From: an uncultured Mailhella sp.
GTDB lineage: Bacteria > Desulfobacterota > Desulfovibrionia > Desulfovibrionales > Desulfovibrionaceae
Direction of reading: 5' to 3'
Assembly (NCBI GenBank): GCA_944324625.1
Contig: CALUWZ010000007.1
Location: 1-22,895 of the forward strand
Length of the DNA stretch: 22,895 nucleotides
Below are positions 2,689-19,792 of this stretch, piece by piece. The notes under the pieces are model-generated. The model ran no database searches, was not told the origin of the DNA, and saw only the letters and a list, made by a program, of their open reading frames with translations. Each line of letters opens with the position of its first letter. Positions within the stretch are counted from its first letter, which is position 1. A program made the translations under genes and the position numbers.

Positions 2689-3453
2689 TTATTTTACCCA
2701 AAATTCGGGATGGCTGCCGTAATACAAAACGGCCTGCTCCAGATCTTCGGGCGTGTCCACTCCATGAGGAGCCTCAGAAATAAGACGCACCTGCATGCGT
2801 ATTCCGTGTTCCAAAAGACGGAGCTGTTCCAGCTTTTCCGTCTGCTCCAGAGGACTTGGCGGGAAATCCGCCATTTTTTCAAGCACGGCGCGGGTGAAGG
2901 CATATACGCCCACATGCCCCACATAGGGAGCTTTGCGCACCCCGTCACGGGCAAAAGGTATGGCCGCGCGTGAAAAATACAGGGCTTCCCCGTTTTGGGC
3001 AAGGGCAATTTTCACCTGATTGGGAGATAAAATTCTGTCCCTGTCTTTTTCTTCGTCAAGAATGACGCCGAGCGTGGAACTTTCGCAGCGGGCATCCCCA
3101 AACGGTTCCAAAAGCTTCAGAAACATTTCTCTGCGCACAAAGGGTTCATCGCCCTGAATATTGGCAATAACCGCTTCTTTGTCCAAATCAAGCAGGCCTG
3201 CCGCCTCACGCACCCTGTCGGTTCCGCTTTGGTGGTCGTTTCTCGTGTGCACAAAAGGAACGCCGAGTTCTTCGGCTTTTTTTTCTATCCGTTCATCATC
3301 CGTTGCCAGCCACACATCTTCAAAAACTTCCGCCTCTTTTGCCCGCATGTAAACATGCCAGAAAAGCGGTTTTCCGCCTATTTCGGCCAAGGGCTTCGCA
3401 GGAAAGCGCGTGGAAGCATAGCGGGCAGGAATGACTGCATACGCTTTTTTCAT
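2689..3453 (-). CDS. kdsB: 3-deoxy-manno-octulosonate cytidylyltransferase (CMP-KDO synthetase)
   Basis: Activates KDO with CTP to form CMP-KDO for the inner core of lipopolysaccharide; a cytoplasmic enzyme. The 254-aa product has the family's nucleotide-binding start IPARYASTRFPAKPL (residues 8-22), ATDDERI, SGTDR at 76-80, NIQGDEPFV with the metal-binding D102, and GVDTPEDLE near the end. Length matches the family (about 250). The ATG at 3453 is preceded by GAGG at 7 nt. An upstream in-frame extension to 3537 is possible but adds a non-conserved hydrophobic stretch, so it is not used. First gene of the kdsB - small exported protein - xth operon, and evidence that the cell makes an LPS outer membrane. 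Confidence 0.96.
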   Translation of the reverse strand: MKKAYAVIPARYASTRFPAKPLAEIGGKPLFWHVYMRAKEAEVFEDVWLATDDERIEKKAEELGVPFVHTRNDHQSGTDRVREAAGLLDLDKEAVIANIQGDEPFVRREMFLKLLEPFGDARCESSTLGVILDEEKDRDRILSPNQVKIALAQNGEALYFSRAAIPFARDGVRKAPYVGHVGVYAFTRAVLEKMADFPPSPLEQTEKLEQLRLLEHGIRMQVRLISEAPHGVDTPEDLEQAVLYYGSHPEFWVK

Positions 3454-3565
3454 ACAATTACCTCGCCATTGCATTGTTATATAGCCCCAAAAAAAAAGCA
3501 AGCAAAAACGCAGAACCGCAAATTGAAAAAATGCCAAAAAAAATTCCCGAATTACAATTTTTTTC

Positions 3566-3593
3566 TTGACGCGTTTTTTCTTTGCTTTATCTT
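3566..3593 (+). promoter_or_regulatory. Possible sigma70 promoter of topA
   Basis: TTGACG at 3566-3571 and TATCTT at 3588-3593 with a 16-nt spacer (both four or five of six matches), about 35 nt before the topA ATG. It lies in the 174-nt AT-rich gap between the divergent kdsB and topA. Consensus match only. Confidence 0.45.
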
Positions 3594-3627: not shown

Positions 3628-6600
3628 ATGAGCAAAGACCTGATTATTGTGGAGTCTCCCGCCAAGGTTAAGACTATCAAAAAATTTCTCGGCAATCATT
3701 ACATGGTACAGGCCAGCGTAGGCCATATCCGCGACCTGCCTTCCCGCGAACTGGGGGTTGACGAAAACACGTTCATGCCCAAATACGTCACCATTCAGGG
3801 CAAGGAAAAAGTCGTGCATGACTTGCAGGAATCCGCCAAAAAAGCGGACATCGTCTATCTTGCGCCCGACCCTGACCGCGAAGGCGAAGCCATTGCATGG
3901 CACATTGCCGAGTCCATAAAGGACTGCTCAAAAAACATCAAGCGCATACAGTTCAACGAAATTACCGCCAAAGCCGTCAAAGATGCCATCGAACATCCGA
4001 GGGAAATCGATCCGCACCTTTTTGAGGCACAGCAGGCACGCCGCATTTTGGACAGGCTTGTGGGCTATAAAATTTCCCCGCTTCTGTGGAAATCCGTCAA
4101 AAGGGGCATTTCCGCAGGCCGCGTGCAGTCCGTTGCCCTGCGCCTTATCGTGGAACGCGAAGAAGAACGTCTTGCTTTTGTGCCCGAAGAATTTTGGAAT
4201 TTTAAAGCCAATCTCACGGCGGACAACATGTCTTTCAAGGCGGAACTGACCAAAATCAACGGCAAAAAAGCCCACATCGCCAACGAAGAACAGGCCCTTG
4301 CCATTGAAAAAGCACTGAATACAGGGTCCTTCATTGTGGAAAGCGTGGAAGAAAAAGAACGCAGCAAAAGCCCGCAGGCGCCGTTCACCACCTCCACGCT
4401 CCAGCAGGCAGCCAACCAGCGCCTCGGCTTTTCCGCAAAACGGACCATGACAACCGCCCAGCGCCTTTACGAAGGCATAGACATTGAAGACAGAGGCACC
4501 GTTGCCCTTATTACCTATATGCGTACGGACTCCGTGCGAATTGCCGACGAAGCAAAAAAAGCCGCCAAGGATTTCATCGAGCAAAAATACGGCAAGGAAT
4601 TTGCTGCGACAGGCGGAAAAGGCCGTGACTTCAAAGGCAAAAAATCCATACAGGACGCCCACGAAGCCATACGCCCCGTTGACGTAAACGTCACGCCCGA
4701 AGAAGTAAAAGCCGCGCTCACGCCGGACCAATACCGCCTCTACAATCTTATTTGGGCGCGCTTTGTGGCCTCACAAATGGCAAACGCAAAATTCCACGAC
4801 ACGGCCGTGGTTATTTCCTGCTGCAGCAGGGACATCAAAGCCGAAACAGAAACAGAAAAAGAATTTTATCCCCTTGAAACGGAATGGAAAACCAAGGGAG
4901 AACGCCTGCTTTTCCCCGGATTTACGACGGTTTTAAGCAGTGCCGACGACAAAGAGGAAGAACTGCCGAAACTTTCCCCCAAGGACGTGCTCGGCGTGGA
5001 ACAAATCCTCAAGGAACAAAAATTCACCCAGCCGAGCCCCCGCTATACCGAAGCGTCCCTCGTGCGGGAACTGGAAGAAAAAGGCATTGGCCGTCCTTCC
5101 ACTTACGCCACCATTATTTCCACCATTCAGGACAGGGAATACGTGCGTCTTGACGGCAAGCACTTTGTCCCTACCGATCTCGGCAATGTGGTCTGTTCAC
5201 AGCTTCGCGACAATTTTCCAACCCTCATGGATGTGGGCTTTACAGCCAAAATGGAAGAAAACCTCGACAAAGTGGCGGACGGAGAACTGGGCTGGGTTAA
5301 GCTGCTGACGGACTTTTCGGGCGATTTCAACACCACGCTGGCCAAAGCAAGCGAACACATGAAAACCATAAAATCCTCAGGCGTGGAAACCAATGTCCCC
5401 TGTCCGAAATGCGGCAAAAACCTGACCGTAAAATTCGGCAAAAGCGGCGAATTTCTTGCCTGTTCAGGCTATCCGGACTGCAAGTTCACCTCTAATTTCA
5501 TCCGCAACGAACACGGTGAAATAGAACTGCAGGCAGCGCCCGAACTCAAAGTGGTCGGCACATGCCCCAAATGCGGCGGCAGCACCGTGGAAAAACGCTC
5601 CCACACGGGCGCACGCTTCATTGCCTGCGCCAATTATCCCAAATGCGACTATGCCGCACCGTTTTCAACGGGCGTAACCTGTCCGCAGTGCCATGAAGGC
5701 GTTTTGGTTGAAAAAAGCTCCAAGCGGGGAAAAATCTTTTATTCCTGCAGCACCTATCCCAAATGCGATTACGCCTTATGGGACTATCCCGTTGCCGAAC
5801 AATGCCCCGAATGCGGTTCTCCCATTCTGGTGCGCAAAAATACCAAGGCCAAGGGCGACCATTACGCCTGCCCCAACAAATCCTGCAGATACATACGCAC
5901 AATCGGCGAAGACGGAGAAGAATTTGAACCGAGCTTTGTGCAGATTCCTCTGCTTCCGAGCCAGCTTCCTCCAAAAGCCGAAATAAGTGCTGAGGAACGC
6001 ACGGAAAAAAACGCTCCGACGGCTGAAAGCCGGAAAGAAACGGCAGAACAGCACACAGAACAAACCGAAGAACAACCCAAAAAAACACGCAAAACCAAAA
6101 CTGCGCAGACAGCCGATGCAGACACTGCACCTGAAAAACCCAAACGCACCCGCAAAAGCAAAACGGAAAACACGGAAAGCGGCACGGACAAAATTATACT
6201 GAACGGCAATGTTTCCGCAGCCAAGGAAGTCAATCTGTATACGGACGGTTCCTGCCTCGGCAATCCCGGCAAAGGAGCCTATGCGGGCATTTTGGAATTT
6301 AAAGGCAAACGGCAGGAATTTGTCGGCGGTTTCAGCCGCACCACCAATAACCGCATGGAACTGCTCGGCGTGATCACGGGCTTAAACAAGCTCAAAGAAC
6401 CCTGCACGGTCAACATTTTCACGGATTCTCAGTACGTGGCAAAAGCCATAAAGCAGGGCTGGCTTGAAAACTGGAAAAAGAACGGCTTCAAAACCGCACA
6501 GAAAAAACCCGTAAAAAACCAAGACTTGTGGATGGAACTGGACAGCGCGCTGAGCCGTCACAATGTTGTGTTCAACTGGATAAAAGGCCATGCAGGCCAC

Positions 6601-6690
6601 CCGGAAAACGAACGCTGCGACGAACTGGCCCGTACCGAAGCCGCCAAGGACAATCTGCCGCAGGATGCCGGTTTTGACGGAGAAGCATAA
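3628..6690 (+). CDS. topA: DNA topoisomerase I fused to a C-terminal ribonuclease HI domain
   Basis: 1020 aa in one uninterrupted frame; E. coli TopA is about 865 aa. The N-terminal TOPRIM domain shows E9 (IIVESPAK) and D81-x-D83-x-E85 (DPDREGEA), the metal-binding acids. The catalytic tyrosine is Y297 in ALITYMRTDS. Four C-terminal zinc-ribbon repeats follow, with cysteine sets at about C592/595/612/618, C646/649/667/673, C685/688 onward and C726/729/748/753. A Lys/Thr/Glu-rich linker (about 790-865) leads to a full RNase HI domain from about 868: LYTDGSCLGNPGKGAYAGIL, with D873, E911, D933, H988 and D998 matching the five catalytic residues of E. coli RnhA. The enzyme should relax negative supercoils and also cut RNA in RNA-DNA hybrids. 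Start: ATG at 3628 is preferred on family grounds; a GTG at 3619 would add three residues. The ribosome-binding site is weak. Confidence 0.97.
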   Translation: MSKDLIIVESPAKVKTIKKFLGNHYMVQASVGHIRDLPSRELGVDENTFMPKYVTIQGKEKVVHDLQESAKKADIVYLAPDPDREGEAIAWHIAESIKDCSKNIKRIQFNEITAKAVKDAIEHPREIDPHLFEAQQARRILDRLVGYKISPLLWKSVKRGISAGRVQSVALRLIVEREEERLAFVPEEFWNFKANLTADNMSFKAELTKINGKKAHIANEEQALAIEKALNTGSFIVESVEEKERSKSPQAPFTTSTLQQAANQRLGFSAKRTMTTAQRLYEGIDIEDRGTVALITYMRTDSVRIADEAKKAAKDFIEQKYGKEFAATGGKGRDFKGKKSIQDAHEAIRPVDVNVTPEEVKAALTPDQYRLYNLIWARFVASQMANAKFHDTAVVISCCSRDIKAETETEKEFYPLETEWKTKGERLLFPGFTTVLSSADDKEEELPKLSPKDVLGVEQILKEQKFTQPSPRYTEASLVRELEEKGIGRPSTYATIISTIQDREYVRLDGKHFVPTDLGNVVCSQLRDNFPTLMDVGFTAKMEENLDKVADGELGWVKLLTDFSGDFNTTLAKASEHMKTIKSSGVETNVPCPKCGKNLTVKFGKSGEFLACSGYPDCKFTSNFIRNEHGEIELQAAPELKVVGTCPKCGGSTVEKRSHTGARFIACANYPKCDYAAPFSTGVTCPQCHEGVLVEKSSKRGKIFYSCSTYPKCDYALWDYPVAEQCPECGSPILVRKNTKAKGDHYACPNKSCRYIRTIGEDGEEFEPSFVQIPLLPSQLPPKAEISAEERTEKNAPTAESRKETAEQHTEQTEEQPKKTRKTKTAQTADADTAPEKPKRTRKSKTENTESGTDKIILNGNVSAAKEVNLYTDGSCLGNPGKGAYAGILEFKGKRQEFVGGFSRTTNNRMELLGVITGLNKLKEPCTVNIFTDSQYVAKAIKQGWLENWKKNGFKTAQKKPVKNQDLWMELDSALSRHNVVFNWIKGHAGHPENERCDELARTEAAKDNLPQDAGFDGEA

Positions 6691-6897
6691 AAAACGGCAT
6701 AATCTTTGCAATCTTCTTTGCAGCAACCCGAAATCAACAGAATAAGCCATATTTTTTCCAAAAAAGTTGGCACATAAAAAGTATACGGCGGCAAAAACAA
6801 AAAAACTGTCACCCCAAAAGGCAGGACAATGCCAACGCAAAGCATGTGCCGCATTAAAAGCCAATTCTGTTGCCGACAAAAAAACAAGGGGAAAAAT

Positions 6898-7713
6898 ATG
6901 AACAGCAGCGAAAGCAAAATGCATGCTTTTGTCCAAAAAAACCGTTATATTCTCATTGGCTGGACAGTTATCCTGCTCTTTACCATGCTTGTATACAATG
7001 CGCTTTTGTTTTCTTCCCTGAAAAAAGAAATGGAAAACAGCCGGCTGGCTTCGGCACGCATTATGGCGGACAATTTGGCGCTTGATATCCAAAGCGGCCT
7101 GAATTTCGGGAAAAAACTCGGCAATTTTAACGGACTGGACCTTCTTTTACAGACAAGAAGCCAATATATGCCCTTGGCGGTTTTTGCTCCCGATACAAGC
7201 CTTATCAAAAAAACCGACCATTTTCCGGACTTGAAAAAAACAGATACCAATTTTTTTGGCACGGAAAACAAAACAGTGCACGGCCAGTTCCTGCAAAAAA
7301 CCGATGACGGTTCCGTACTGTTCCTGCCTCTTGAGGAGAAAAACGGCACTGCAGGATATCTTGCCGTTTTTATTGACGATAATTCCATACTGTCCGAACT
7401 TTACACATTTTACGGCAAGCAGCTTGGCCTGCAGGGCGCCATAGTTCTTGCGGGCATCCTGTGTCTGGCTCTTTTGCTGCGCCTTTTGGAAAAAAGAACC
7501 GAAAAACTTAATATTCCCCTTGAAAAAGCTCTGCGCCATACCCGTTTATGCGGAATTTGCACGTTTCTTGCCGCCCTGCTTTTAAACGGCGCACTGATGA
7601 TTTACAGTTCCAACAGTCGATATATAGAAACACTGAAAGCAGATTCAGAAAAAACGTTTATTTTCATGTCAAAGACACTGAACAAATTGCTGCTGGTGGG
7701 CATTGCCTTTTAA
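6898..7713 (+). CDS. N-terminal part of a sensor-MFS membrane protein, ended by an in-frame TAA
   Basis: 271 aa from the ATG at 6898 (AAGGGG site about 6 nt upstream; weaker in-frame ATGs at 6829 and 6844 lack one). Predicted layout: TM1 at about 17-40, a periplasmic region of about 130 residues resembling a Cache-type sensor (long helix ASARIMADNLALDIQSGLNF, then a strand LAVFAPD), TM2 at about 175-197, a short basic cytoplasmic loop, TM3 at about 217-237, then the start of a second periplasmic region with GIAF just before the stop. The next open frame (7717-9348) is in the same reading frame only one codon later and completes this second region, so this is very likely the first third of a single ancestral gene. 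It could still be made as a separate, truncated sensor-like protein. Ligand unknown. Confidence 0.75.
   Translation: MNSSESKMHAFVQKNRYILIGWTVILLFTMLVYNALLFSSLKKEMENSRLASARIMADNLALDIQSGLNFGKKLGNFNGLDLLLQTRSQYMPLAVFAPDTSLIKKTDHFPDLKKTDTNFFGTENKTVHGQFLQKTDDGSVLFLPLEEKNGTAGYLAVFIDDNSILSELYTFYGKQLGLQGAIVLAGILCLALLLRLLEKRTEKLNIPLEKALRHTRLCGICTFLAALLLNGALMIYSSNSRYIETLKADSEKTFIFMSKTLNKLLLVGIAF
7711..7713 (+). other. In-frame TAA interrupting the sensor-MFS gene
   Basis: The codons TTT TAA AAC ATG join two open frames in the same phase. One substitution (AAA, CAA or GAA to TAA) would restore an 816-codon gene spanning 6898-9348. The stop falls inside a predicted second sensor-like region, directly after GIAF, where the first such region has GLNF followed by GKKLGN. 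The second part has no convincing ribosome-binding site of its own. A sequencing error in the TTTTAAAA run, a recent pseudogene, or stop-codon read-through or re-initiation are all possible. Confidence 0.75.
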
Positions 7714-7716
7714 AAC

Positions 7717-9348
7717 ATGGACAACACAAATGCCTATCTCACCAATATCACGGAAACGCACCGCAACATCATTCTGCTGAAAATTTATGACGAAAACAAT
7801 ACGCTTGCGGCACAAAGCCAAAACCATGCCGAAAAAAGCCTTGCCGATCCGCTGACTTTTCCCGTTACGCTCCATACCCTGCAAACAGACAGCAATACTG
7901 CACAAACAGAAAGGAACTGGACGCTCACGGTGTCCGTCAGCTACCAGTCATGGCTTGCCTATCTGCGGACCATAACGCTGGATATGCTGACCATCGTGGT
8001 CATATCCGTTATTTTCATGACCGAACTGTTTCTTCTGCTCATACGCGGCATTGACTATATTCAGGACAAAAAGCGCCGCGTTTCCGAATCCGCCGCACAG
8101 GCTCTGCAGGACCCCGAACAGGCCCAGCAAAACAAAGGCGTTTCCCGCACAGTGCTGATGCGGCCGCTGATGTTCTTTGTGTTTTTTGCCATAAACCAGT
8201 CCGTCTCCTTTATTCCCCTACGCATGTCCGAACTGCTTTCCGCCCAAAACATCCAAAATACCGTGCTTGCAGGCCTGCCCGTATCCGCAGAAATGGGCAT
8301 GACGGGTCTAAGCGCCCTGATTGCAGGCACATGGATCAAGAAAAAAGGCATAAAGCTTCCTTTTATGAGCGGGCTTTGCATGCTCGGCATAGGCTATTTC
8401 TGCTCCATGCTCGCCGTCAGCCCTTGGCAGTTCATAGCGGCGCGCGCCGTTGTGGGCACAGGCTACGGCCTCACCCTGCTCACAGCCCAAGCTTTTACCG
8501 TTAAAGACGGCATGCTGGCTGACATGTTTTCAGGGGCCTATGCAGGCATGCTCTGCGGAAGTGCCCTCGGCGCCATGATTGCCGAACGCTTGGACTTCAC
8601 TGCCGTATTTTTAATTTCCGCCGTTATCCTGCTCTGTTTCCTTCCTGTTTCCCGCCTTATTCTCAAAGAAGAAAAACAGGCACGGCAGCCAGAAAAGGAC
8701 AGTCTGCAGAACACCGCAGAAGAAAACAAAAAAGCCGCACTTCCCCTGAAAAAAATACTGCCCCTGCTGTGGGACAAACAGTTTCTGTCCTTTGTCCTCT
8801 GCAACCATATACCTTTTGCCATGCTCTGCGTAGGCTTCCTCAATTTCTTTCTGCCCGTTTATCTCAAAAGCGCAGGCACGGCACAGTCCGACATCGGCCG
8901 TATTTTCATGCTGAACTGTCTGCTTGTGGTTTATTCAGGCCCTGTTTTCAGCAGTTTTGTACTCAAAATGACACGCAAAAACAATATGGTTGCCGCAGTG
9001 GGCGCACTGTCTGCCTGTGCGCTTTTTGCCCTGTCCATGCTTCCGCCGCTTCCCGGCTCCCTGCTCGGCGCCGTTTTGCTGGGAACAGCCGTTGGACTGA
9101 GCATTTCCGCACAAAGCGAATATTTCCTTGAACTTGAAATCTGTAAAAAACTCGGTGTCGATCAAAGCATGAGCCTTTTGGACGTGCTCCAGCGCGTAGG
9201 TCAGGTCCTCGGCCCGCTCTGCGCCGGCTTTGCCCTGCAGACCATGAACATTGACGCCGTCACCAAGCAAGTCGGGTTGGCATTTATCTGCATTTCCGTT
9301 CTGTTCCTCTTCCTGACCCGAAAGCACAAACCCCGCGCTGAACATTAA
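7717..9348 (+). CDS. MFS permease with N-terminal periplasmic region (C-terminal part of the split gene)
   Basis: 543 aa. Residues 1-85 complete a periplasmic sensor-like region (YLTNITETHRNIILLKIYDENN), then a transmembrane helix at about 87-109, a charged cytoplasmic linker (about 110-144), and about 400 residues of Major Facilitator Superfamily permease. The permease has roughly 12 hydrophobic helices in two halves, separated by a charged loop EEKQARQPEKDSLQNTAEENKK (around 315-340). GIKLPFMSGLCMLGIGYF followed by AARAVVGTGYG is typical of MFS helices 3-4. Start: the ATG at 7717 lies one codon after the TAA and has no good ribosome-binding site, so independent translation is doubtful. It would export or import a small molecule, perhaps under control of the attached sensor regions. 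Substrate unknown. The next gene starts 4 nt after its stop. Confidence 0.8.
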   Translation: MDNTNAYLTNITETHRNIILLKIYDENNTLAAQSQNHAEKSLADPLTFPVTLHTLQTDSNTAQTERNWTLTVSVSYQSWLAYLRTITLDMLTIVVISVIFMTELFLLLIRGIDYIQDKKRRVSESAAQALQDPEQAQQNKGVSRTVLMRPLMFFVFFAINQSVSFIPLRMSELLSAQNIQNTVLAGLPVSAEMGMTGLSALIAGTWIKKKGIKLPFMSGLCMLGIGYFCSMLAVSPWQFIAARAVVGTGYGLTLLTAQAFTVKDGMLADMFSGAYAGMLCGSALGAMIAERLDFTAVFLISAVILLCFLPVSRLILKEEKQARQPEKDSLQNTAEENKKAALPLKKILPLLWDKQFLSFVLCNHIPFAMLCVGFLNFFLPVYLKSAGTAQSDIGRIFMLNCLLVVYSGPVFSSFVLKMTRKNNMVAAVGALSACALFALSMLPPLPGSLLGAVLLGTAVGLSISAQSEYFLELEICKKLGVDQSMSLLDVLQRVGQVLGPLCAGFALQTMNIDAVTKQVGLAFICISVLFLFLTRKHKPRAEH

Positions 9349-9352
9349 GGTT

Positions 9353-10810
9353 ATGCAGAAAAATAATTACACCGAACAATTGCGGCAGGCCCTTCCGAGA
9401 GTTTTTCAGCTCATGGACACGCCGTTGAAAACACTGCCCCTGAAAGAATACGTACAGGCCTTTCGGCGCAACGACAACACCCTGCAGGACGGAGAAGACG
9501 TTATTGCCGCGGCGGAAAACGAAACCCGCGCCCTTTACGGTGACGCCGAAGCAAAACTCGTGCGCAGGGAACTGGAAAACCGCTTTGCCGTGCATACCGC
9601 CAATCATCAGGGCATTGACTTCCACTACGAATTTTTTCAGGGAGACCTGCTTTTTGCCCTCGGGTGCAGGCATGCCGTGCCGCTGTTTTCCTGCGGCGGC
9701 GTTCCCTGCGACAATATATGCTTTCCCCGCGGCATTGTCCTTTCTTCCAAAAATCCGGACAGCACCAAGGTACTGCGTATTCCCGTACTCAGCAATGCGG
9801 AGCGCAAAATTTTTGTCTGCGTAAAAGATGCCTATACCAAGGAACAGCTCAAATCCTGTCCCGAACAAAATCCCGATCTTTCCGAAAAGGAAAAAACTCT
9901 TATCCGCAGTCTCGTGCAAAAAATATATCTGCATCCGCAGGTGCTGCGGCAGACAAGCTTCAGCACGCAGATGAGCATTGCCAACAGCCTGACATGGGAA
10001 AAACTTACCCCTTCGTCCTTCAGGCTTCCACCGCTCATCAACTTGGAACTGCTGCAGATAACCAAGAAACTCATGCTTCTTGACATGCAGAATCCCTGCA
10101 GTCTCATTTACACGGTTTTATTCGAACCCGAATTTACCAAGGCCATATTCCATGCCCTCAACCATCAAAGGGCATGCTGGCAGATTACGGACAAAATCGA
10201 AAAAGGAACCTTTTTGTTCTGGGCCGTTGACGGACAAAAACACAGCAGACGCCTGACCTACAATGCCAAAAAGCACAGTGTCGAATGTCCGCAGCATCCC
10301 GAACTGTCCTTTGCGCTGACTCCGGAAACCGTCAGCCGCGCCATGCAGGAAGGCACGCTTCTGCCCAGTCTGTACCTTTGTTTTTCCGCTCTGACCATGG
10401 CAAGGGGACTTGTCTGCTTCGGCGGGCCCTACCAGCATCATTACATGGCAGCCATGCAAAACGGCACCCAAAACGTTCTTCGGCTAATCGGCGAAAACGC
10501 CGCGGCAGACAAAATACGCTGCGTCAGCCCCTTTGTCACGGGACTCATGCCTCTGCAAATGCGTTATCCGAACCGAGAAAAAACCTTTTACGCAGGCATT
10601 GCCGAAATACTGCTGGCAGGAGGCATAGACGAAAATCTCTGGGAACAGCTTGGCAGTGCAGATACGTTCAAAACCTTCTGCGCGTCTTTGCCTTTTCATT
10701 ACGAAGAAGTCATTGCGCCGTCCGAACGGCTTGAAAACTGGCAAAATATCCTGTATTCCCCCTCCCCGCTTGTTCTTTCGGAAAAAGCCGCGGATTTTAA
10801 CTTTGATTAA
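9353..10810 (+). CDS. Unrecognised cytoplasmic protein in the sensor-MFS cluster
   Basis: 485 aa with no signal peptide and no membrane segment; I do not recognise the family. The most conserved-looking part is residues 84-127: NHQGIDFHYEFFQGDLLFALG, then C105-R-H107 and the run CGGVPCDNICFPRG with Cys at 114, 119 and 123. Several His and Cys there could bind metal, and the glycine-rich, hydrophobic pattern looks like an enzyme core. A second glycine/histidine patch is GLVCFGGPYQHHYMA (around 350). The ATG lies 4 nt after the MFS stop with only a short AAGG in front, which points to translational coupling with the permease. The substrate-binding protein gene follows 44 nt later, so all appear to be one transcript. 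A role in making or modifying the substrate of the permease is a guess from context only. Confidence 0.8.
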   Translation: MQKNNYTEQLRQALPRVFQLMDTPLKTLPLKEYVQAFRRNDNTLQDGEDVIAAAENETRALYGDAEAKLVRRELENRFAVHTANHQGIDFHYEFFQGDLLFALGCRHAVPLFSCGGVPCDNICFPRGIVLSSKNPDSTKVLRIPVLSNAERKIFVCVKDAYTKEQLKSCPEQNPDLSEKEKTLIRSLVQKIYLHPQVLRQTSFSTQMSIANSLTWEKLTPSSFRLPPLINLELLQITKKLMLLDMQNPCSLIYTVLFEPEFTKAIFHALNHQRACWQITDKIEKGTFLFWAVDGQKHSRRLTYNAKKHSVECPQHPELSFALTPETVSRAMQEGTLLPSLYLCFSALTMARGLVCFGGPYQHHYMAAMQNGTQNVLRLIGENAAADKIRCVSPFVTGLMPLQMRYPNREKTFYAGIAEILLAGGIDENLWEQLGSADTFKTFCASLPFHYEEVIAPSERLENWQNILYSPSPLVLSEKAADFNFD

Positions 10811-10854
10811 TACCTTTTTTTGAGATAGCATAATAAAAAATTAAGGAAAAAAAT

Positions 10855-11979
10855 ATGCATCGCCACTCCATGATAAAAATTCTGCTTACGCTGTGCGTTT
10901 GTTTCTGCACTGTTTTGAATGCCCATGCGGCTCCCGCCAAAAAAATCCGCATCGCCTATGCGGAAGGCGGATATTTTGCCGATTATCCGCTGATTTTAAA
11001 AGGCATAACCTCAGGGCTTCAGCAATTCGGCTATATCGAAAACGGCTTTGTTCCCATTCCCCAAAAAGGACACGTTGCCAAACAGATGTGGCAGTGGCTT
11101 CATGAATACGCAGGCGGCGACAAAATAGAATTTGTGGAAGATGCCTGCTATTCCGCAGACTGGGACGAACAAAAACGTCAGGAAATCAAAGAAACGCTTA
11201 TTAAGCGCGTTCGGGAAAAAGGTGATATAGACATGATTGTCACCGTCGGAACATGGGCCGGCCAAGATTTTGGCAGAGCGGATTTAAATATTCCCGTTGT
11301 TGTCACATCCGTAACCAATCCCATTGAAGCAGGCATTGCCCTTTCCCCGCAGGATTCAGGCAAAGACAACCTTGCCGCCACGGTTCAGCTTGACCGCTAC
11401 AAACGGCAAATTCTCCTTTTCCATTCCATTTTTAAATTCAAAAAACTCGGCATTGCCTACGAAGACACCGAAGAAGGCAGAAATATGATTTCCCTTGCGG
11501 AAATTGAAAGCGCAGCAAAAGAAACAGGAACGGAACTTGTCACCTGCACGGGGGATCTGTATATTTCCGATCTGCAGAAAGCTTCCGAAAACCTTAAAAT
11601 CTGCCATGAACAGTTTGTCCGCCAAGGGGTTGACGCCGTGTATCTTACCCTGAACAACGGCCTTTCCGCCAAATATGCCAAAAATGTTCTGGCACCGCTG
11701 AGCAATGCGCATATCCCAACATTTTCCCAGTCAGGGCAGGAAGACGTCAAGCACGGTGCACTGCTCAGCATTTCACAGCTCAATCTGGAACAGGAAGGCA
11801 TTTTTGCCGCAGAACAGATCAAAGCCATTGCGGAAGGCAAAAAACCGAGGGAAGTCAATCAAATTTTTGAAAGCATAATCAGCCTGACCCTGAACCTTAA
11901 AACCGCCACCATTATCGGCTGGAATCCTCCGCTGGAACTGCTTATTGCCATCGACGAATTCTATCAGGACATCCAGTAA
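10855..11979 (+). CDS. Periplasmic substrate-binding protein, ABC_sub_bind (TrpX-like) family
   Basis: 374 aa. The first 25 or so residues (MHRHSMIKILLTLCVCFCTV, then LNAHA) form a Sec signal peptide ending in an A-H-A cleavage site; no lipobox is seen. The mature part follows the two-lobe pattern of the ABC_sub_bind family (PF04392 type): LILKGITSGLQQFGYIENG near the start, DMIVTVGTWAGQDF, IPVVVTSVTNPIEAGI, LGIAYEDTEEGRNM, and GVDAVYLTLNNGLSAKYAKNV. Such proteins bind small organic solutes (aromatic amino acids in TrpX). AAGGA precedes the ATG by about 7 nt. No ABC permease or ATPase gene is in the window, and the only transporter in the transcript is the sensor-MFS protein upstream. A terminator follows at 12052. 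Confidence 0.87.
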   Translation: MHRHSMIKILLTLCVCFCTVLNAHAAPAKKIRIAYAEGGYFADYPLILKGITSGLQQFGYIENGFVPIPQKGHVAKQMWQWLHEYAGGDKIEFVEDACYSADWDEQKRQEIKETLIKRVREKGDIDMIVTVGTWAGQDFGRADLNIPVVVTSVTNPIEAGIALSPQDSGKDNLAATVQLDRYKRQILLFHSIFKFKKLGIAYEDTEEGRNMISLAEIESAAKETGTELVTCTGDLYISDLQKASENLKICHEQFVRQGVDAVYLTLNNGLSAKYAKNVLAPLSNAHIPTFSQSGQEDVKHGALLSISQLNLEQEGIFAAEQIKAIAEGKKPREVNQIFESIISLTLNLKTATIIGWNPPLELLIAIDEFYQDIQ

Positions 11980-12051
11980 AGCCGCGAACCTGCCCTGACG
12001 AAAAAACAGCACCACATTTCAGCAAATAAACAGAACATATTTTAAAACAAC

Positions 12052-12077
12052 AAACAGCCTTCAAGGCTGTTTTTTTA
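12052..12077 (+). terminator. Rho-independent terminator after the substrate-binding protein gene
   Basis: CAGCCT (12055-12060) and AGGCTG (12064-12069) form a stem with a TCA loop, extended by A:T pairs and followed by a T run. It ends the cluster that starts at 6898. Confidence 0.9.
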
Positions 12078-12509
12078 TTTTCCCGCAATATGCGCAAAAA
12101 TCCGTTACAGACAACACAGTACGCACACAAAAATTTTTTGTCCGGTCAGACAGCTTTCATGACAAAAACAACCAGCCGCAGAAAAAAAAACACAAACATT
12201 TTTGTAACAGACGCATGCATTTAACCTGCCGTAATGTATGCATTTGTCGGCATACAATCCGGTTACGGACTTTTTTTGCAGACAAATTCGGCGTTTCTCA
12301 ACCTATAGCAGACAGCATGTGAAAAATACTGCAAAATGCCCCCAAAAAACGGCAAAATTCGTCATTCAAAAATTTTTTTCATAAGCAAAGCTTTCTTCCC
12401 TCACAAAAAAATATCATATCATATTGAAAAAAATATATTTTTTATTTACTTTTCTGCTGCGGCCCACTTTTTTCCGAAAAAAATGAAAAGTCTTTTTTCA
12501 AAAAGTGTA
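12078..12509. other. Long AT-rich intergenic region, no gene seen
   Basis: About 430 bases between the terminator and the promoter of the FAD enzyme gene. No convincing coding frame: a 75-codon frame at 12336 is low-complexity Lys/Phe. It contains scattered GTTAC/GTAAC words (12105, 12204, 12262) and a small inverted repeat GTATGC/GCATAC at 12236-12255. These could be regulator contacts for the downstream promoter, but nothing here is decisive. Confidence 0.5.
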
Positions 12510-12537
12510 TTGACAGCAAAATTCTTTTTTCTATACT
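12510..12537 (+). promoter_or_regulatory. Strong sigma70-type promoter of the FAD oxidoreductase gene
   Basis: A perfect TTGACA (12510-12515) and TATACT (12532-12537) with a 16-nt spacer. The -35 box is embedded in TTGACAGCAAAATT, a 14-bp word that recurs before the BCCT gene and, with one change, after it. The predicted transcript start is near 12544, leaving a leader of about 70 nt before the ATG at 12614. Confidence 0.8.
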
Positions 12538-12545
12538 CAAAAACA

Positions 12546-12560
12546 TGTTACACCGTAACA
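12546..12560. promoter_or_regulatory. Inverted repeat at the predicted transcript start (possible operator)
   Basis: TGTTAC (12546-12551), ACC, GTAACA (12555-12560) is a perfect 6-bp inverted repeat starting 8 nt after the -10 box. A looser one follows at 12561-12579 (TAATACG / CATATTA). The position fits a repressor site. The regulator is unknown; the IclR protein encoded at 17523 is one candidate. Confidence 0.45.
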
Positions 12561-12613
12561 TAATACGGTACGCATATTAAAAAAGAAAACAATTTTTTCA
12601 TAAGGAGCGTAGT

Positions 12614-13990
12614 ATGAGGGACGCAATTGTTATCGGTGCAGGCATTGCCGGCATGTCAGCCGCTTGGCGCTTACGTTTTGGAGACTTGCTCGTTCTTGAG
12701 GCAAGCAACCGTATCGGCGGCCGTCTGCGTTCAGAACGCAGAGGCAAATACTGGCTTAACTGGGGCGGCCACGTTTTCGGAGGCCCGGGATCTTATGTTG
12801 ACGGTCTGCTGCGGGAAGTCGGCGTTGACGCGCTGAACCTGCAGGGATCTTTTTCCGCGCTTTCTTTCAAGGGCAAAACCCTGAACGGCGGAAACGTAAA
12901 CCTGTATCCTTTCAAACTTCCTCTTTCATGGTCAACCCGCTTTGAAATTGCCCGCGTAGGCCTTAAAGTCATGCGCGCCGTAAAAGCATACGGCAAAGTA
13001 AACAAACCCCGCCCGGGCGAAGATTACCGTGTCCGTCAGCAGCGCATTTACGATTTTATGGCCGACAGAACATTTTCCGATTTCACGGGCCCTCTGACCC
13101 CGGATGCAGACGCATTCTTCCGTCCCACGGTATCCCGCTCCTCAGGCGACCCTGAAGAAATTTCAGCAGGCGCAGGCGTCGGCTATTTCCTGCTTGTATG
13201 GGACAAAAGCTCAGGCCTTGCCCGCAACATTGTAGGCGGCGCGGCAACCCTTCCGCAGGCCATTGCCCACAAACTCGGCGATAAAGTTCAGCTTGGCGCA
13301 GAAGTTATCAAAGTTATCCAGCATGATGACCACGTTGAAGTCGTATACGTGCAAAACGGCGAAGAAAAAACCGAAAAAGCCCGTTACTGCGTCATGACAA
13401 CGCCCGCAACCATTACCCACAAAGTAACCGAAGGCCTTGACCCCATTGTTCACGAAGCACTCGGCCAGATTAAATACGGCCATTATGTTTCAGGCGCATT
13501 CCTCACCAATGAAACGGGCGTTCAGTCTTGGGACAACGTATACGCCTACTGCACGCCTCAGCGTTCATTCAACATTGCGTTCAACATGTCCAACCTTGTG
13601 CGTTCCATGGAAAACGGCGAAAGAGCCCCGGGTTCTTCCTTCATGGTTTTCTCTCCCGCAAGCCTTGCACGCAAGCTTATCGACCTTCCCGATGAAGAAG
13701 TTCTCGACATTTACCGCAAAGACTTGGAAGAAGTATTCCCGGGCTTTGGCAAAATCGTTGTGGAACAGCAGGTGCAAAAATTCAGAAACGGCCTTGCCTA
13801 CTGCTTCCCGGGCAGAAACAAGCTTCAGCCCAAGCTCATGCGCGCACCGAAACGCATTTACCTTGCAGGCGACTATCTCGGCTCATGGTATACGGAAACA
13901 GCCATTCAGACAGGCCTTTTGGCAGGTGAAGACATCAACAGCAAGCTTTATACCGACAATCTTCTGCCGAACAACGGTTTTGTATATTAA
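12614..13990 (+). CDS. FAD-dependent oxidoreductase, flavin amine oxidase / protoporphyrinogen oxidase-like
   Basis: 458 aa. The N terminus has the dinucleotide-binding fold: G8-A-G10-I-A-G13, E29 in LVLEAS at the end of the second strand, and the RIGGR motif (33-37) typical of the amine oxidase superfamily. Near the C terminus, IYLAGDYLGSWYTETAIQTG, with D420, is the second FAD-contacting motif. Family members oxidise amines to imines or desaturate ring or chain substrates; the exact reaction cannot be read from sequence. The RidA gene downstream, which would clear an imine, favours an amine-type substrate. No signal peptide or membrane helix, so it is cytoplasmic. GGAG lies 7 nt before the ATG. 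A strong promoter and regular C-ending codons suggest high expression. Alternatives are a HemG/HemY-like or carotenoid-desaturase-like enzyme; I see no haem or carotenoid genes nearby. Confidence 0.85.
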   Translation: MRDAIVIGAGIAGMSAAWRLRFGDLLVLEASNRIGGRLRSERRGKYWLNWGGHVFGGPGSYVDGLLREVGVDALNLQGSFSALSFKGKTLNGGNVNLYPFKLPLSWSTRFEIARVGLKVMRAVKAYGKVNKPRPGEDYRVRQQRIYDFMADRTFSDFTGPLTPDADAFFRPTVSRSSGDPEEISAGAGVGYFLLVWDKSSGLARNIVGGAATLPQAIAHKLGDKVQLGAEVIKVIQHDDHVEVVYVQNGEEKTEKARYCVMTTPATITHKVTEGLDPIVHEALGQIKYGHYVSGAFLTNETGVQSWDNVYAYCTPQRSFNIAFNMSNLVRSMENGERAPGSSFMVFSPASLARKLIDLPDEEVLDIYRKDLEEVFPGFGKIVVEQQVQKFRNGLAYCFPGRNKLQPKLMRAPKRIYLAGDYLGSWYTETAIQTGLLAGEDINSKLYTDNLLPNNGFVY

Positions 13991-14010
13991 TCCTTAATCC
14001 TCAAAACTCT

Positions 14011-14030
14011 CCGGGAGCCTGCGCTCCCGG
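14011..14030 (+). terminator. GC-rich hairpin between FAD enzyme and ridA (weak terminator or processing site)
   Basis: CCGGGAGC (14011-14018) and GCTCCCGG (14023-14030) pair perfectly around a CTGC loop. A pyrimidine-rich ACCCCCTCTTTTCTTT tail follows instead of a clean T run. It could act as a partial terminator or protect the upstream mRNA, giving more FAD enzyme than RidA. Confidence 0.55.
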
Positions 14031-14056
14031 ACCCCCTCTTTTCTTTCGGAGACACC

Positions 14057-14440
14057 ATGAGAGATACCATAAGCAGCAGCAAAGCCCCCCTTGCAGTGGG
14101 CAATTATTCCCAAGCAGTGCGGGCAGGCGATTTTCTTTTCCTTTCAGGCCAAATCTGCGTCAATCCGCAGACAGGCAAGGAAGAACGGGAAAGCGTAACC
14201 GCACAGACAACCAGAATTATGGAAAACATCAAAGGCATTGTGGAAGACGCAGGCGCAACCATGGACGATGTGGTGCAGTGCAGGGCGTTTCTTTCCGATA
14301 TGAAACATTTTCCTGAATTTGACGCCGTTTACGGCAAATATTTCAGCAAACCTTTTCCTGCCCGCATGACAGTGGCCAGCGCAGGCATTTACAATGATTT
14401 GGATGTGGAAATGGATGTGGTAGTATACTGCAGACAGTGA
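14057..14440 (+). CDS. ridA: RidA family reactive imine/enamine deaminase
   Basis: 127 aa, the usual length of the RidA/YjgF/UK114 family. These trimeric cytoplasmic enzymes hydrolyse reactive imines and enamines released by PLP and flavin enzymes to the carbonyl compound and ammonia. Family signatures are visible: AVGNYSQAVRAGDFLFLSGQ (13-32) with the active-site Tyr17, and the key arginine R103 in FPARMTV. E118 in VEMDVV occupies the usual acidic position. The conserved arginine makes a true deaminase likely. The ATG follows GGAG by about 6 nt and lies 66 nt after the FAD oxidoreductase, behind a GC-rich hairpin. Its partner is probably that oxidase, whose imine product it could hydrolyse. 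Confidence 0.94.
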   Translation: MRDTISSSKAPLAVGNYSQAVRAGDFLFLSGQICVNPQTGKEERESVTAQTTRIMENIKGIVEDAGATMDDVVQCRAFLSDMKHFPEFDAVYGKYFSKPFPARMTVASAGIYNDLDVEMDVVVYCRQ

Positions 14441-14448
14441 TTTTGAAT

Positions 14449-14515
14449 ATTTTGCTGTCAAAAGAATTAAGCAAAAAATTTTGGGCAGTTGACTTAAAAA
14501 TTTTGACAGCAAAAT
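14449..14515. promoter_or_regulatory. Paired 15-bp inverted motif upstream of the BCCT gene
   Basis: ATTTTGCTGTCAAAA (14449-14463) and its exact reverse complement TTTTGACAGCAAAAT (14501-14515) are separated by 37 nt, just after the ridA stop and before a strong AGGAGG site (14527-14532) and the BCCT ATG. The right arm repeats the TTGACAGCAAAATT word found at the FAD gene promoter. The pair could bind a dimeric regulator with looping, or form a long RNA stem-loop. A weak TTGACT (14489-14494) lies between the arms. Confidence 0.6.
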
Positions 14516-14536
14516 TTAAGGGTTTTAGGAGGTGTT

Positions 14537-16132
14537 ATGTCAAACGAAACTAAAGATCAATCTTCAGCCAAGCTTGATAAAAAATTGATGATTCCAAGCG
14601 TACTCATGGTTCTGTTCATTGCAGTTCCGCTGGTAATTTTTTCCAATACGCCCGCAATCCAAGAATTTATCAAGTTTGTTTACAAAGTTACATCAGATAC
14701 CTTCGGCTGGGGATATATTCTTCTTTACCTGTTATTCGGCTTTTTTGTATTTTATGTTGCATTCAGCCCCTACGGCAAAATCAAACTCGGCCCCAAAGAC
14801 CAAAAACCCCGTTACGGGTATTTCCACTGGGCCAGCATGATCATTGCCGCAGGCCACGGCTGCGGACTTGTCAACTGGTGCATGGTTGAACCGCTTATCA
14901 TCAACCACGTGGCTCCCCTCGGCCAAGGATACAACAGCGCCTATACATACGAAGTTGCCGCGGCCTACATGCTTTTCCACTGGGGCCCCTACTACTGGGT
15001 TCTCTATCTTGTAGCCTGCGTGCCGATATTCTACTTCCTCGGCATACGCATGTATGACCGCCAAAGAGCTTCCGCCACCCTTGAACCGCTCATCGGCAAA
15101 AAAGGCGTGGAAGGCTGGTTCGGCATTATTTTTGACGCCTTTGTCATTCTGAGCCTTGCAGGCGGCCTCGGCGCAACGCTCACCTCTGCCGTGCAGCTTG
15201 TGGGCGGCCTTTTCGGAAGTTTCTTTGATCTTGAAAACACAAAACAATTCCAAAGCATTATTCTTTTTACCTTTACCATTATTACGGCAGTCAGCCTGCG
15301 CAAGCCTGTCAGCCGCGGCATGAAGGTTCTTTCCGACGCCAACTCCGTTCTGGCAATACTTTTGCTTGCCATCGTCGTTCTCGGCGGTCCCACGGCGTAT
15401 TTCTTCAGCCTTGCTACCAACACCCTCGGCATGACTCTGGATATTTTCCCCCGCATTTCAGGCTGGACCGACCCCTTCGGCGTCAGCGGCTATCCGCAAG
15501 AATGGACAGTTTTCTACGGCGCATGGTTTGTTGCCTACGCTCCCATGATGGCCATTTTCTTCACAGGCATTTCCATGGGACGCACCCTGCGTGAAACCAT
15601 TCTCGGCGTATATTTCTTCGGCTGCCTTTCTTCCTTCCTGTTCACCATTGTCATGGGCGGTTTTGTGCTTTACTGCCAAAAGAACGGCATCGACCTTTAC
15701 GGCTTCTACGTTGCCTCCGGCAATGACCTGCCCAAAACAGTCAGCTACGTTCTGACCATGGTGCCTTTTGCCAAGATTTACGCTCCGTTTTTCCTTGTTA
15801 TGGTTACCATTTTCCTTGTAACCACCATTGATGCCGCTACCCGCGTTATCGCAGCCATGACCACAAGAAACATGATTGCGGGCCAAGAACCTTCTGTTTT
15901 CGCCAAGATTTCATGGTGTTTTGCCATTGCGCTTTTGGTCTGGGGCGTTCTTTTGGTCGGCGGCCTCTCGGTTATCCAAGCCCTTGTCGTGCTCACGGCC
16001 CTTCCGCTCCTTGTTGTATGCGTCATTATGAATTTCTCCACCTTCAAGGCAATACACATGGATTTCCCGCACATCAGAAGCAAAAACCTGCTCTTCTTTG
16101 AAAACAGACACGAAAAGCAGGAAAATGAATAA
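14537..16132 (+). CDS. BCCT family transporter (betaine/carnitine/choline-type)
   Basis: 531 aa with about 12 transmembrane helices, an inner-membrane secondary carrier of the BCCT family (BetP, CaiT, BetT). Family marks include AAGHGCGLVNWCMVEPL in the glycine-rich TM3 and FHWGPYYWVLY in TM4, which keeps W149, W154 and Y157 at the aromatic-box positions. WTVFYGAWFVAYAP in TM8 is followed by GISMGRTLRETILGV. In TM8 the usual tryptophan-rich WAWWxSW pattern reads G328-A-W330-F331-V-A-Y334, so the substrate pocket differs from classical trimethylammonium carriers. A near-perfect AGGAGG site 4 nt upstream and regular codon use suggest high expression. It is preceded by a paired inverted motif and followed by a 13-bp hairpin. 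With the FAD enzyme and RidA it likely imports the amine they degrade; substrate not determined. Confidence 0.92.
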   Translation: MSNETKDQSSAKLDKKLMIPSVLMVLFIAVPLVIFSNTPAIQEFIKFVYKVTSDTFGWGYILLYLLFGFFVFYVAFSPYGKIKLGPKDQKPRYGYFHWASMIIAAGHGCGLVNWCMVEPLIINHVAPLGQGYNSAYTYEVAAAYMLFHWGPYYWVLYLVACVPIFYFLGIRMYDRQRASATLEPLIGKKGVEGWFGIIFDAFVILSLAGGLGATLTSAVQLVGGLFGSFFDLENTKQFQSIILFTFTIITAVSLRKPVSRGMKVLSDANSVLAILLLAIVVLGGPTAYFFSLATNTLGMTLDIFPRISGWTDPFGVSGYPQEWTVFYGAWFVAYAPMMAIFFTGISMGRTLRETILGVYFFGCLSSFLFTIVMGGFVLYCQKNGIDLYGFYVASGNDLPKTVSYVLTMVPFAKIYAPFFLVMVTIFLVTTIDAATRVIAAMTTRNMIAGQEPSVFAKISWCFAIALLVWGVLLVGGLSVIQALVVLTALPLLVVCVIMNFSTFKAIHMDFPHIRSKNLLFFENRHEKQENE

Positions 16133-16166
16133 CCCATAATAATCTCAAACAACAAACCCATACAAG

Positions 16167-16199
16167 CTGTCAATACGGCGCACCGTGCCGTATTGACAG
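16167..16199. terminator. 13-bp hairpin after the BCCT gene (terminator or operator)
   Basis: CTGTCAATACGGC (16167-16179) and GCCGTATTGACAG (16187-16199) pair perfectly around a 7-nt loop. There is no T run, so it is not a classic terminator. The right arm leads into TTGACAGTAAAATT (16194-16207), a one-base variant of the motif seen upstream of the FAD and BCCT genes, so it may instead be a regulator site for the genes that follow. Confidence 0.6.
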
Positions 16200-16270
16200 T
16201 AAAATTCCGCAGCAGTTCACCGCAGCTGCGGCATATTTAATCTGTGACAGCATGCGCTTTGAGGTAAAAA

Positions 16271-16534
16271 ATGGAACTTTCCCTTTTTATTAAACTTATT
16301 CTGCTTCTCGCAGTTTTGACTGTTTTCTTTTTCATGCAGAATTATGTTCTGAAACTCTATGAAAAAGAATGCCTGAAACTCTGGAACAAATCCAAAGGCG
16401 AACAGACTGCTTCCTGCTGGCTGAAAATTAAACGCCTTGCCTTTGCCTTCTGCGCCGTACTCATTATTGCGGGAATTTCCGCCGCTCTCGGCTACTACTG
16501 CGGAACTCAGGGCTTTTTTTCCTCTCTGAACTAG
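16271..16534 (+). CDS. Small two-helix membrane protein, unknown function
   Basis: 87 aa. Two hydrophobic segments, about residues 4-24 (FIKLILLLAVLTVFFFMQNY) and 53-75 (LAFAFCAVLIIAGISAALGY), flank a charged loop of about 28 residues (LKLYEKECLKLWNKSKGEQT). It starts with a good GAGG site 6 nt before the ATG. Its stop overlaps the ribosome-binding region of the DMT transporter gene, which begins 7 nt later, so the two are translationally coupled. It could be an accessory subunit of the DMT or BCCT carrier. I do not recognise a family. Confidence 0.8.
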   Translation: MELSLFIKLILLLAVLTVFFFMQNYVLKLYEKECLKLWNKSKGEQTASCWLKIKRLAFAFCAVLIIAGISAALGYYCGTQGFFSSLN

Positions 16535-16541
16535 GACTGCC

Positions 16542-17450
16542 ATGCTCAATCCGCAATTTTTAAAAATTTTTCTCAATCTCTTTCTTGTTTATATTTCATG
16601 GGGTACTCTGTACCTTTTCAACAAAAATACCATTGCCGTGTTCGGTCCTTTTCTTACCTGCGGTTTCCGAACCTTTACGGGCGGCATCGGCATCTGCCTT
16701 TTTCTTCTTTTAAGCAAAAAATTTGTTCTGCCTTCAAAAAAAGACATTGTTCAGGCCAATTGGATGGGCTTTTTCATGGTGACCGTAGGCGCAGGCTTTT
16801 TATCCAAAGGTCAGGAAAGCGTGCTCTCCTCCACCGCAGCCATGATTACAGCCTCCGTCCCCATTACCATGCTTATTTCCGGCTGGCTCCTTGCAGGAGA
16901 ACCCTGTCCCCGAAAAACTCAGTGGGCAGGGCTTTTTTTCGGTTTTCTCGGCCTTGCCGTCATTGCTTTAAGCCAAAATTCCGAAAACAGCACGGGACAC
17001 AATTCCTTAATCGGCATTGCATGGCTTTTTGCCGCCACACTGGGCTGGATAGCCGGCACGCTCCTGACTCGGCGCTTTCCTTCAAATTCAAAGCTTTCAG
17101 GAATACAAAACTGTGCATTTTTATTGATATTCGGCGGCATACAGACATTTCTGATCGGCCTTGCTGCAGGGGAGGGCGCGGAAGTCAAATGGCAGGCCGT
17201 CAATGCGGAAATTCTTTTTTCCCTTGCATGGCTCAGCCTCGGCGGTTCCGTTATTGCCTACAGCTGTTATTTTTGGCTTCTTTCACATACCACCATTGCC
17301 GTAACCATATCCTATGAATACGTGGTGCCCGTCATCAGCCTTGCCGTAGGCTATTTTATCGGCAGCGAACCCATAACCCTTGCCATGGTTTTAGCAAGCG
17401 CCATGACCATAGGCTCCGTATTTTTTATTATACGGCAAAAATTGCATTGA
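16542..17450 (+). CDS. EamA / DMT superfamily transporter
   Basis: 302 aa with about ten hydrophobic helices arranged as two EamA repeats (roughly residues 8-140 and 155-297). This is the standard layout of drug/metabolite transporters, many of which export amino acids or metabolites. Typical segments are YISWGTLYLFNK near the start, GFRTFTGGIGICLFLLL in helix 2, SSTAAMITASVPITMLISGWL and GEPCPRKTQWAGLFFGFLGLAVI in repeat 1, and YEYVVPVISLAVGYFIGSEP in repeat 2. The AGGA site overlaps the stop of the small membrane protein. Within this cluster it is a candidate exporter for a product or by-product of amine oxidation; importer roles also exist in the family. Confidence 0.9.
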   Translation: MLNPQFLKIFLNLFLVYISWGTLYLFNKNTIAVFGPFLTCGFRTFTGGIGICLFLLLSKKFVLPSKKDIVQANWMGFFMVTVGAGFLSKGQESVLSSTAAMITASVPITMLISGWLLAGEPCPRKTQWAGLFFGFLGLAVIALSQNSENSTGHNSLIGIAWLFAATLGWIAGTLLTRRFPSNSKLSGIQNCAFLLIFGGIQTFLIGLAAGEGAEVKWQAVNAEILFSLAWLSLGGSVIAYSCYFWLLSHTTIAVTISYEYVVPVISLAVGYFIGSEPITLAMVLASAMTIGSVFFIIRQKLH

Positions 17451-17475
17451 AATTACAAGGGTTTCATTTTATCAT
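17447..17475 (+). promoter_or_regulatory. Sigma70-type promoter of the IclR gene
   Basis: TTGAAA (17447-17452), a 17-nt spacer and TATCAT (17470-17475; five of six matches). The -35 overlaps the DMT transporter stop codon. The leader to the ATG at 17523 would be about 40 nt. Consensus match only. Confidence 0.55.
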
Positions 17476-17522
17476 AAGTTATATGTTTCTGCACATGCCA
17501 CCCATAAGCAGGATTATCGGAT

Positions 17523-18347: not shown

Positions 18348-18692
18348 ACACGGCTGCGGAAGCGAACTTTTCTGCCCGCTCCTTTCGGCCCCACGCAGCA
18401 CCGCAGATCCCTGCGGCTCTTTGTTTCCTGCCGCATTGCCTTTCTGTCCGCGGCATGCCTTCAGCCCCTGAACCGAGACTTTTATTCCGCCGAGGACGGC
18501 ATCAGCGCCAGCATACAGACAGTACGGACAGACGGCATTGCCATTATCTGATTTCTTTATTATGCCTGACAGCCTGCCAAACACATTATAAAAAATTTAA
18601 AATGCAATCCGCTTCTCCCTGCCAAAGGATCAAAAAAATACTGCAGTCCGGGCGAACCCCTATTTTGCCGGTACTCTCAAAAAACGAACCTA
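18348..18692. other. Intergenic region with a possible weak terminator, no gene seen
   Basis: A hairpin CCGCAG/CTGCGG (18401-18416, ATCC loop) followed by CTCTTTGTTT may end the IclR transcript. The rest has no frame with gene-like composition: frames on both strands are Arg/Cys-rich or overlap the IclR gene and look like shadows. Base composition falls sharply from about 18590 into the LysR module. Confidence 0.45.
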
Positions 18693-19772: not shown

Positions 19773-19792
19773 TATTTTTAAAGGAGCGGAAT

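Follow-up and report, generated by a model that had tools for sequence, protein, structure and literature searches.

Negative supercoils behind RNA polymerase favour R-loops in E. coli, where overproduction of RNase HI rescues the growth of topA null strains and topA rnhA double nulls fail to grow, as passages of one source describe (PMC6160223). Topoisomerase I also binds RNA polymerase, according to extracts of a second source (PMC10187895), and structures of RNAP-TopoI complexes have been solved (9gda and others). RNase HI has been described in two-enzyme chains: SCO2299 of Streptomyces coelicolor unites an RNase H with an acid phosphatase (in extracts of PMC1950709), and MSMEG_4305 of mycobacteria unites an RNase H with CobC (in extracts of PMC7466739). 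The protein described here likewise houses RNase HI in a two-enzyme chain, but it carries the domain at its C-terminal end, whereas in MSMEG_4305 the RNase H is N-terminal. The partner in both known chains is metabolic; here it is a topoisomerase, the enzyme whose loss causes R-loops, and neither a phosphatase nor a CobC domain was detected in the fusion protein by Pfam or NCBIfam at E 0.001.

Topoisomerases with added domains are also known. Reverse gyrase is a type IA topoisomerase joined to a helicase-like domain, and the PRK06319 family joins topoisomerase I to a SWI domain, which is not an enzyme. Our protein, encoded in a 22,895-nucleotide stretch of DNA from an uncultured Mailhella sp. 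(hereafter the window), resembles PRK06319 in carrying an added domain and scores 701.8 bits against it, below the cut-off of 868. Against reverse gyrase it reaches 304 bits (NCBIfam cut-off 471.7), and no helicase-like domain was found in it. Compared with the unfused TopA of E. coli and of Desulfovibrionaceae, the fusion continues past the fourth zinc ribbon into a linker and an entire RNase HI; compared with E. coli-type RNase HI, the fused domain is not free-standing but sits C-terminal on topoisomerase I. Among the 17 NCBIfam families matching the window protein, no name refers to a topoisomerase I-RNase HI fusion, and no report of such a fusion was found in the open-licence literature, where absence is not absence from print. 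The component enzymes, RNase HI in two-enzyme chains and topoisomerase I with added domains are thus already known, and the joining of TopA to RNase HI is the new element.

An earlier note, made from the letters and their open reading frames, had described a single frame encoding a topoisomerase I, a charged linker and an RNase HI. It argued from the intact active sites that both functions are used, and it named a broken linker, or absence of the fusion from close relatives with separate topA and rnhA, as grounds for rejecting the idea. The frame is indeed unbroken and encodes 1020 residues and a stop, with matches to both enzymes in Pfam and NCBIfam (Table 1). The mechanical open reading frame begins at GTG 3619, whereas the alignment of relatives places the conserved start at ATG 3628; a weak promoter-like match upstream (3566-3593) carries no evidential weight.

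Table 1. Features of the fusion gene and its upstream neighbour, in window coordinates; residue numbers refer to the fusion protein.
Feature	Position	Strand	Basis and details
topA-rnhA fusion gene	3628..6690	+	One open frame; Pfam and NCBIfam matches to both enzymes
TOPRIM domain, residues 5-112	3640..3963	+	PF01751; E9 just inside, plus D81, D83, E85
Type IA topoisomerase core, residues 127-560	4006..5307	+	Pfam Topoisom_bac; catalytic Y297 at 4516-4518
Four C4 zinc ribbons	5401..5886	+	PF01396; C592/595/612/618, C646/649/667/673, C685/688/707/713, C726/729/748/753
Variable charged linker, ~residues 762-862	5911..6213	+	Low model confidence; absent from unfused TopA
RNase HI domain, residues 866-1005	6223..6642	+	Catalytic D873, E911, D933, H988, D998
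kdsB, divergent upstream neighbour of fusion	2689..3474	-	TIGR00466, 210 bits, over cut-off

The N-terminal part has the features of a type IA topoisomerase I, namely the TOPRIM acids, the core, the active-site tyrosine and C-terminal zinc ribbons like those of E. coli TopA, and the protein scores 784 bits against NCBIfam topA_bact (cut-off 456). The same chain scores 216 bits against NCBIfam ribonuclease HI (cut-off 160), and Pfam RNase_H matches with E 3e-46 over an RNase H fold that holds the D-E-D-H-D catalytic set. RNase HI of this E. coli type has the feature called the ‘basic handle’. Pfam Zn_ribbon_Top1 matches three stretches, the best being 591-624; the four repeats proposed at the outset are borne out by 16 cysteines from C592 to C753 that are present in 27 of 27 sequences. 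A study by Cheng and others reportedly concerns the zinc ribbons and RNA polymerase.

Both halves are whole: the fusion contains the full extents of an unfused TopA and of a free RNase HI with extra sequence between them. In the nearest genus by TopA score (g52), two unfused TopA proteins (L136 and L137) end 15 residues past the last zinc cysteine, and the free RNase HI starts with a methionine shortly ahead of the TDGSC motif. By domain content, the fusion is a complete bacterial topoisomerase I followed by a linker and a complete E. coli-type RNase HI. Its single-chain sequence thus bears out the proposal that the predicted activities of supercoil removal and hybrid removal lie on one molecule.

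The structure model agrees with this layout. In a model built from an alignment of 50 sequences, both domains are predicted with good confidence and pLDDT falls below 50 only at 762-854. An earlier model from 22 close sequences gave a poor topoisomerase core, which the wider alignment resolved. The predicted folds match E. coli topoisomerase I and E. coli RNase HI; in the list of fold matches (VIA-align, 50 rows), residues 1-636 are densely covered, the RNase H domain is present in 8 rows and the zinc ribbons past residue 636 are barely tested.

A protein search with residues 760-1020 among approximately 5.8 billion proteins returned 42 hits from 2134 candidates. In 26 of these, the topoisomerase, zinc-ribbon and RNase H domains occur together according to the Pfam column, 24 of them with Toprim as well, so the domain order that the earlier note had wanted mapped recurs in 26 protein clusters. 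Chance is excluded by the E-values together with this conservation. Fifteen further hits carry RNase H beside other partners and one (P0042) is a topoisomerase piece lacking RNase H. As a side observation, the fifteen (P0028-P0041 and P0043) include P0029, named anthranilate synthase component 1 in one source, and P0032, named GcvPB in another; the RNase H is C-terminal in P0028-P0030. Further partners among the fifteen are, by Pfam accession, a reverse transcriptase, a PIF1-like helicase and a DnaQ-like exonuclease.

The catalytic residues are retained throughout. We aligned the window protein with 21 of the 26 fusions (68-94% identity to it), leaving out P0014, P0016, P0002, which differs from the window protein by five residues, and P0007 and P0020, which lack the N terminus. 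In these 22 rows, the acids E9, D81, D83 and E85, the tyrosine Y297 and the RNase H residues D873, E911, D933, H988 and D998 are invariant at the positions first assigned to them. When residues were counted in an alignment of all 26 fusions and the window protein, the RNase H five were found in 27 of 27 sequences, the TOPRIM acids in all 25 sequences that cover them (the other two have gaps) and the tyrosine in 26 of 26 covering sequences. One protein, P0011, is missing 27 residues after residue 112 that are present in the other rows.

Selection on the RNase H domain could be gauged from five full-length genes, four of whose ten pairs have unsaturated dS. For the RNase H domain, these pairs give dN/dS values of 0.085, 0.073, 0.071 and 0.120, which are rough because dS in those pairs is high (0.6-2.1). 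The topoisomerase core gives 0.056-0.087 in the same four pairs, and the finite values for the linker are 0.26-0.58, a clear contrast. Both halves are under purifying selection, which is strong in the RNase H domain. A decayed passenger domain is ruled out by the conserved catalytic residues and the low dN/dS, and the argument that intact active sites mean both functions are used gains from the same two observations, the residues being kept across 27 sequences.

The fusion is present in all six genomes of the genus. Five copies are full length; the sixth matches over profile positions 444-1018 and is truncated where a 3228-base contig ends. PF00075 matches exactly once in every one of the six, within the fusion, and the check for a separate rnhA found no other RNase HI gene in any of them; the fusion occupies the place of a separate rnhA in the genomes seen. 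In five of the six no second type IA topoisomerase was found, three of those five being only 80-91% complete. In G003, a single contig of 2,172,708 bases that is 99% complete, no PF01131 or RNase HI match other than the fusion was found, and one RNase HII is also present. The remaining genome, G002, encodes a second, unfused and very divergent topoisomerase I-like protein of 721 residues (L145:2930-5092, + strand), which scores 513 bits against TIGR01051, over the cut-off, and forms a very long branch in the TopA tree.

We searched 348 genomes of the order with the fusion profile; 345 matched and three did not, matches being listed for 149 genomes and the other 196 matching genomes being searched again. 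Among the matches listed, none spans both domains in the 342 genomes of the order outside the genus, where the topoisomerase matches listed end at or before profile position 850, short of the catalytic part of RNase H. Similarly, 395 genomes drawn from the phylum, partly overlapping with this set, yielded no other full-span fusion among the matches listed. In the genomes searched, the fusion is thus confined to one genus and separate topA and rnhA appear only outside it, and the absence from close relatives that would have counted against the fusion is not seen in the six genomes. A 906-residue frame with RNase H in one genome (G100) was rejected as a candidate topoisomerase fusion, since NCBIfam gives RNase H models only and the TopA pieces lie on another contig.

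The carriers of the fusion are a small bacterial group, probably from animal guts. The closest titled records are from Desulfovibrionaceae, for example Candidatus Bilophila faecipullorum at 65% identity, in a scan that may omit the window's nearest records. In five of the six genus genomes, but in none of four outside the genus, the sulfoacetaldehyde acetyltransferase Xsc scores above its cut-off; in G003 it lies at 1.06 of 2.17 Mb. Taurinivorans muris LT0009 uses Xsc for taurine, unlike Bilophila wadsworthia, as extracts of one source report (PMC10507020); its taurine-cluster transporter genes have locus tags 1026-1027 out of 2,059 protein-coding genes, which likewise puts them near mid-genome. 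The genus that carries the fusion is probably Taurinivorans. A point against this is G+C content, 43.6% in LT0009 by the same source and 46.2% in G003, the latter a local value over the 18 kb read. Around the fusion, the stretches L144, L146, L147, L148 and L149 range in G+C from 34% (G004) to 51% (G001), a strong difference within one genus.

Phylogenies were used to place both halves. In an RNase H tree of 70 rows, a single branch (support 88/96) separates the 26 fused domains from all others, and in a TopA tree of 56 rows, from which three distant type IA paralogues and four further rows are left out, the 25 fused sequences form one clade (support 100/100). With the three paralogues included (63 rows), the fused set needs two changes, a very long branch joining inside it. 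The trees fit a single fusion event, with no loss seen. An RNase H from outside the family is unsupported: the fused domains sit among Desulfovibrionaceae RNase HI, in a tree whose deep branches are weak and whose sampling was limited to the order.

The neighbourhood suggests which gene moved. The gene kdsB lies divergent and upstream of the fusion in four genus genomes (the window, G001, G003 and G004), and it adjoins the unfused topA in three g52 genomes (three of the seven short loci compared). In four relatives with both genes on one contig, two of them from the nearest genus, topA and rnhA are approximately 400 kb (G265), 41 kb (G256), 204 kb (G022) and 129 kb (G104) apart; an origin from adjacent genes is thus unsupported in these relatives. 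The simplest course would be that topA stayed, rnhA moved in behind it once and the old copy was lost. The genes downstream of the fusion vary between genomes. In the window, positions 6691-22895 hold an MFS transporter, an ABC substrate-binding protein, an amine oxidase, a Rid-family protein, a BCCT transporter, an IclR regulator, a CitMHS transporter and an amidohydrolase, as well as long open frames at 6829-7713 and 9353-10810 (both + strand) that match nothing in Pfam or NCBIfam at E 0.001. The stretches compared in relatives, some of which end soon after the fusion, show none of those downstream genes next to it; the exception is G003, where amidohydrolase-like and CitMHS-like relatives (27-40% identity) lie on the opposite side of the fusion.

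From its two complete halves, we propose that the N-terminal part would act as a full topoisomerase I, relaxing negative supercoils, and the C-terminal part as a full RNase HI, cutting the RNA of RNA-DNA hybrids, with the flexible linker tethering the two over 70-166 residues across the family and leaving their geometry free. A topoisomerase I trailing RNA polymerase would relieve the negative supercoiling that promotes R-loops, while the RNase HI tethered to it would destroy hybrids formed on that same DNA. The fused protein very likely has both activities. The whole reading, in which a bifunctional enzyme would relax transcription-driven supercoils and clear the resulting R-loops, has in our estimate a probability of about 0.5, and for tethering to give joint action on R-loops the odds are about even. 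It is a tentative suggestion, slightly short of an even chance, that selection joined the two activities for a coupled function, giving a dedicated anti-R-loop enzyme that is the sole type IA topoisomerase and RNase HI in at least one member. The suggestion draws on the four zinc ribbons being kept, with RNase HI attached through the chain end that adjoins them, on G003 having no other type IA topoisomerase or RNase HI, and on the links known from E. coli.

A serious rival is that the fusion is neutral: in a small genome, rnhA came to lie in frame after topA, its former copy disappeared, and the two enzymes do independent jobs with the tether only fixing them at 1:1. The weight of this rival comes from the linker, which lacks any conserved feature except a start codon at its beginning. 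In the window protein, the linker is approximately 100 residues long and predicted disordered, with low model confidence. Across the 27 sequences, the corresponding stretch (772-865) is 70-166 residues long, rich in charged residues and in T, S, A and P, with a net charge of -2 to +14 that is positive in 26 of 27, and it is conserved in neither length nor sequence; nothing in the sequence thus demands a defined joint mechanism. The distance of rnhA from topA in the four relatives means that one rearrangement could join them, and genomes of the genus are small (1.7-2.7 Mb, with several of them incomplete). Neutrality, too, would lead one to expect both halves to be under purifying selection, and fusions are probably rarely undone, so that long retention alone is no proof of benefit.

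Against neutrality, the joint has survived divergence to 68-71% protein identity with no split and no separate RNase HI gene in six genomes, and topA and rnhA were already strongly linked genetically. We regard a neutral fusion as less likely than not. The picture of a simple tether is itself weakened by E. coli, where the inhibition of R-loop-dependent replication by topoisomerase I seems independent of its C-terminal contact with RNA polymerase, as extracts of one source state (PMC10187895). Co-localisation at the polymerase may therefore not matter.

An improbable alternative is that the RNase H domain is freed in the cell, by proteolysis of the linker or by an internal translation start, so that no joint enzyme exists there. 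Predicted disorder would favour proteases, and all six genus genomes share a start codon where the linker begins (GTG in five, ATG in G004; 5938-5940 in the window, residue 771), 79-148 codons ahead of the catalytic aspartate. This codon may be an internal start or merely a conserved valine, and a separate RNase HI product is possible. Yet the codon mostly corresponds to a valine kept in the protein, no clear ribosome-binding sequence precedes it in the five genomes with upstream bases read, and the genus genomes have no start codon at a shared position close ahead of the RNase H domain itself. The linker frame is open at the DNA level in four other full-length copies and in the 3′ fragment of the sixth genome, which leaves no sign of the stop or frameshift at 6000-6230 that would have undone the fusion. 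The hit P0042, of 597 residues and 95% identical to the fusion P0011, runs from within the topoisomerase core into the linker, where it stops, and has no RNase H; as it lacks the N terminus as well, it may come from a broken assembly, the alternative being a real split in the linker.

It is quite improbable that the fused RNase HI serves mainly in the removal of replication primers, with topoisomerase I placing the enzyme at forks. RNase HI in general acts on RNA primers too, according to extracts of one source (PMC4429107), but the topA-rnhA genetics of E. coli concern R-loops and RNase HII is still present. An assembly or annotation artefact, which the fragmentation of the window genome (237 contigs, 89% complete) might invite, is refuted by independent copies, the same order being found in 26 protein clusters and in five genomes at full length (one of them a single contig) with another at a contig end, and its probability is negligible.

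The idea of topoisomerase I and RNase HI as a common guard against R-loops derives for the most part from genetics in E. coli, where the two genes are separate. As a bifunctional enzyme with both predicted activities on one chain, the fusion would be a natural system in which to ask if supercoil relaxation and hybrid removal must share one place, and a ready-made tool enzyme for work on R-loops. Its interest is above average because the two partners are already strongly linked in function. The lineage that carries it probably includes a cultured isolate, and the gene content of its members suggests that one type IA topoisomerase, bearing an RNase H of its own, can be enough for a bacterium to live.
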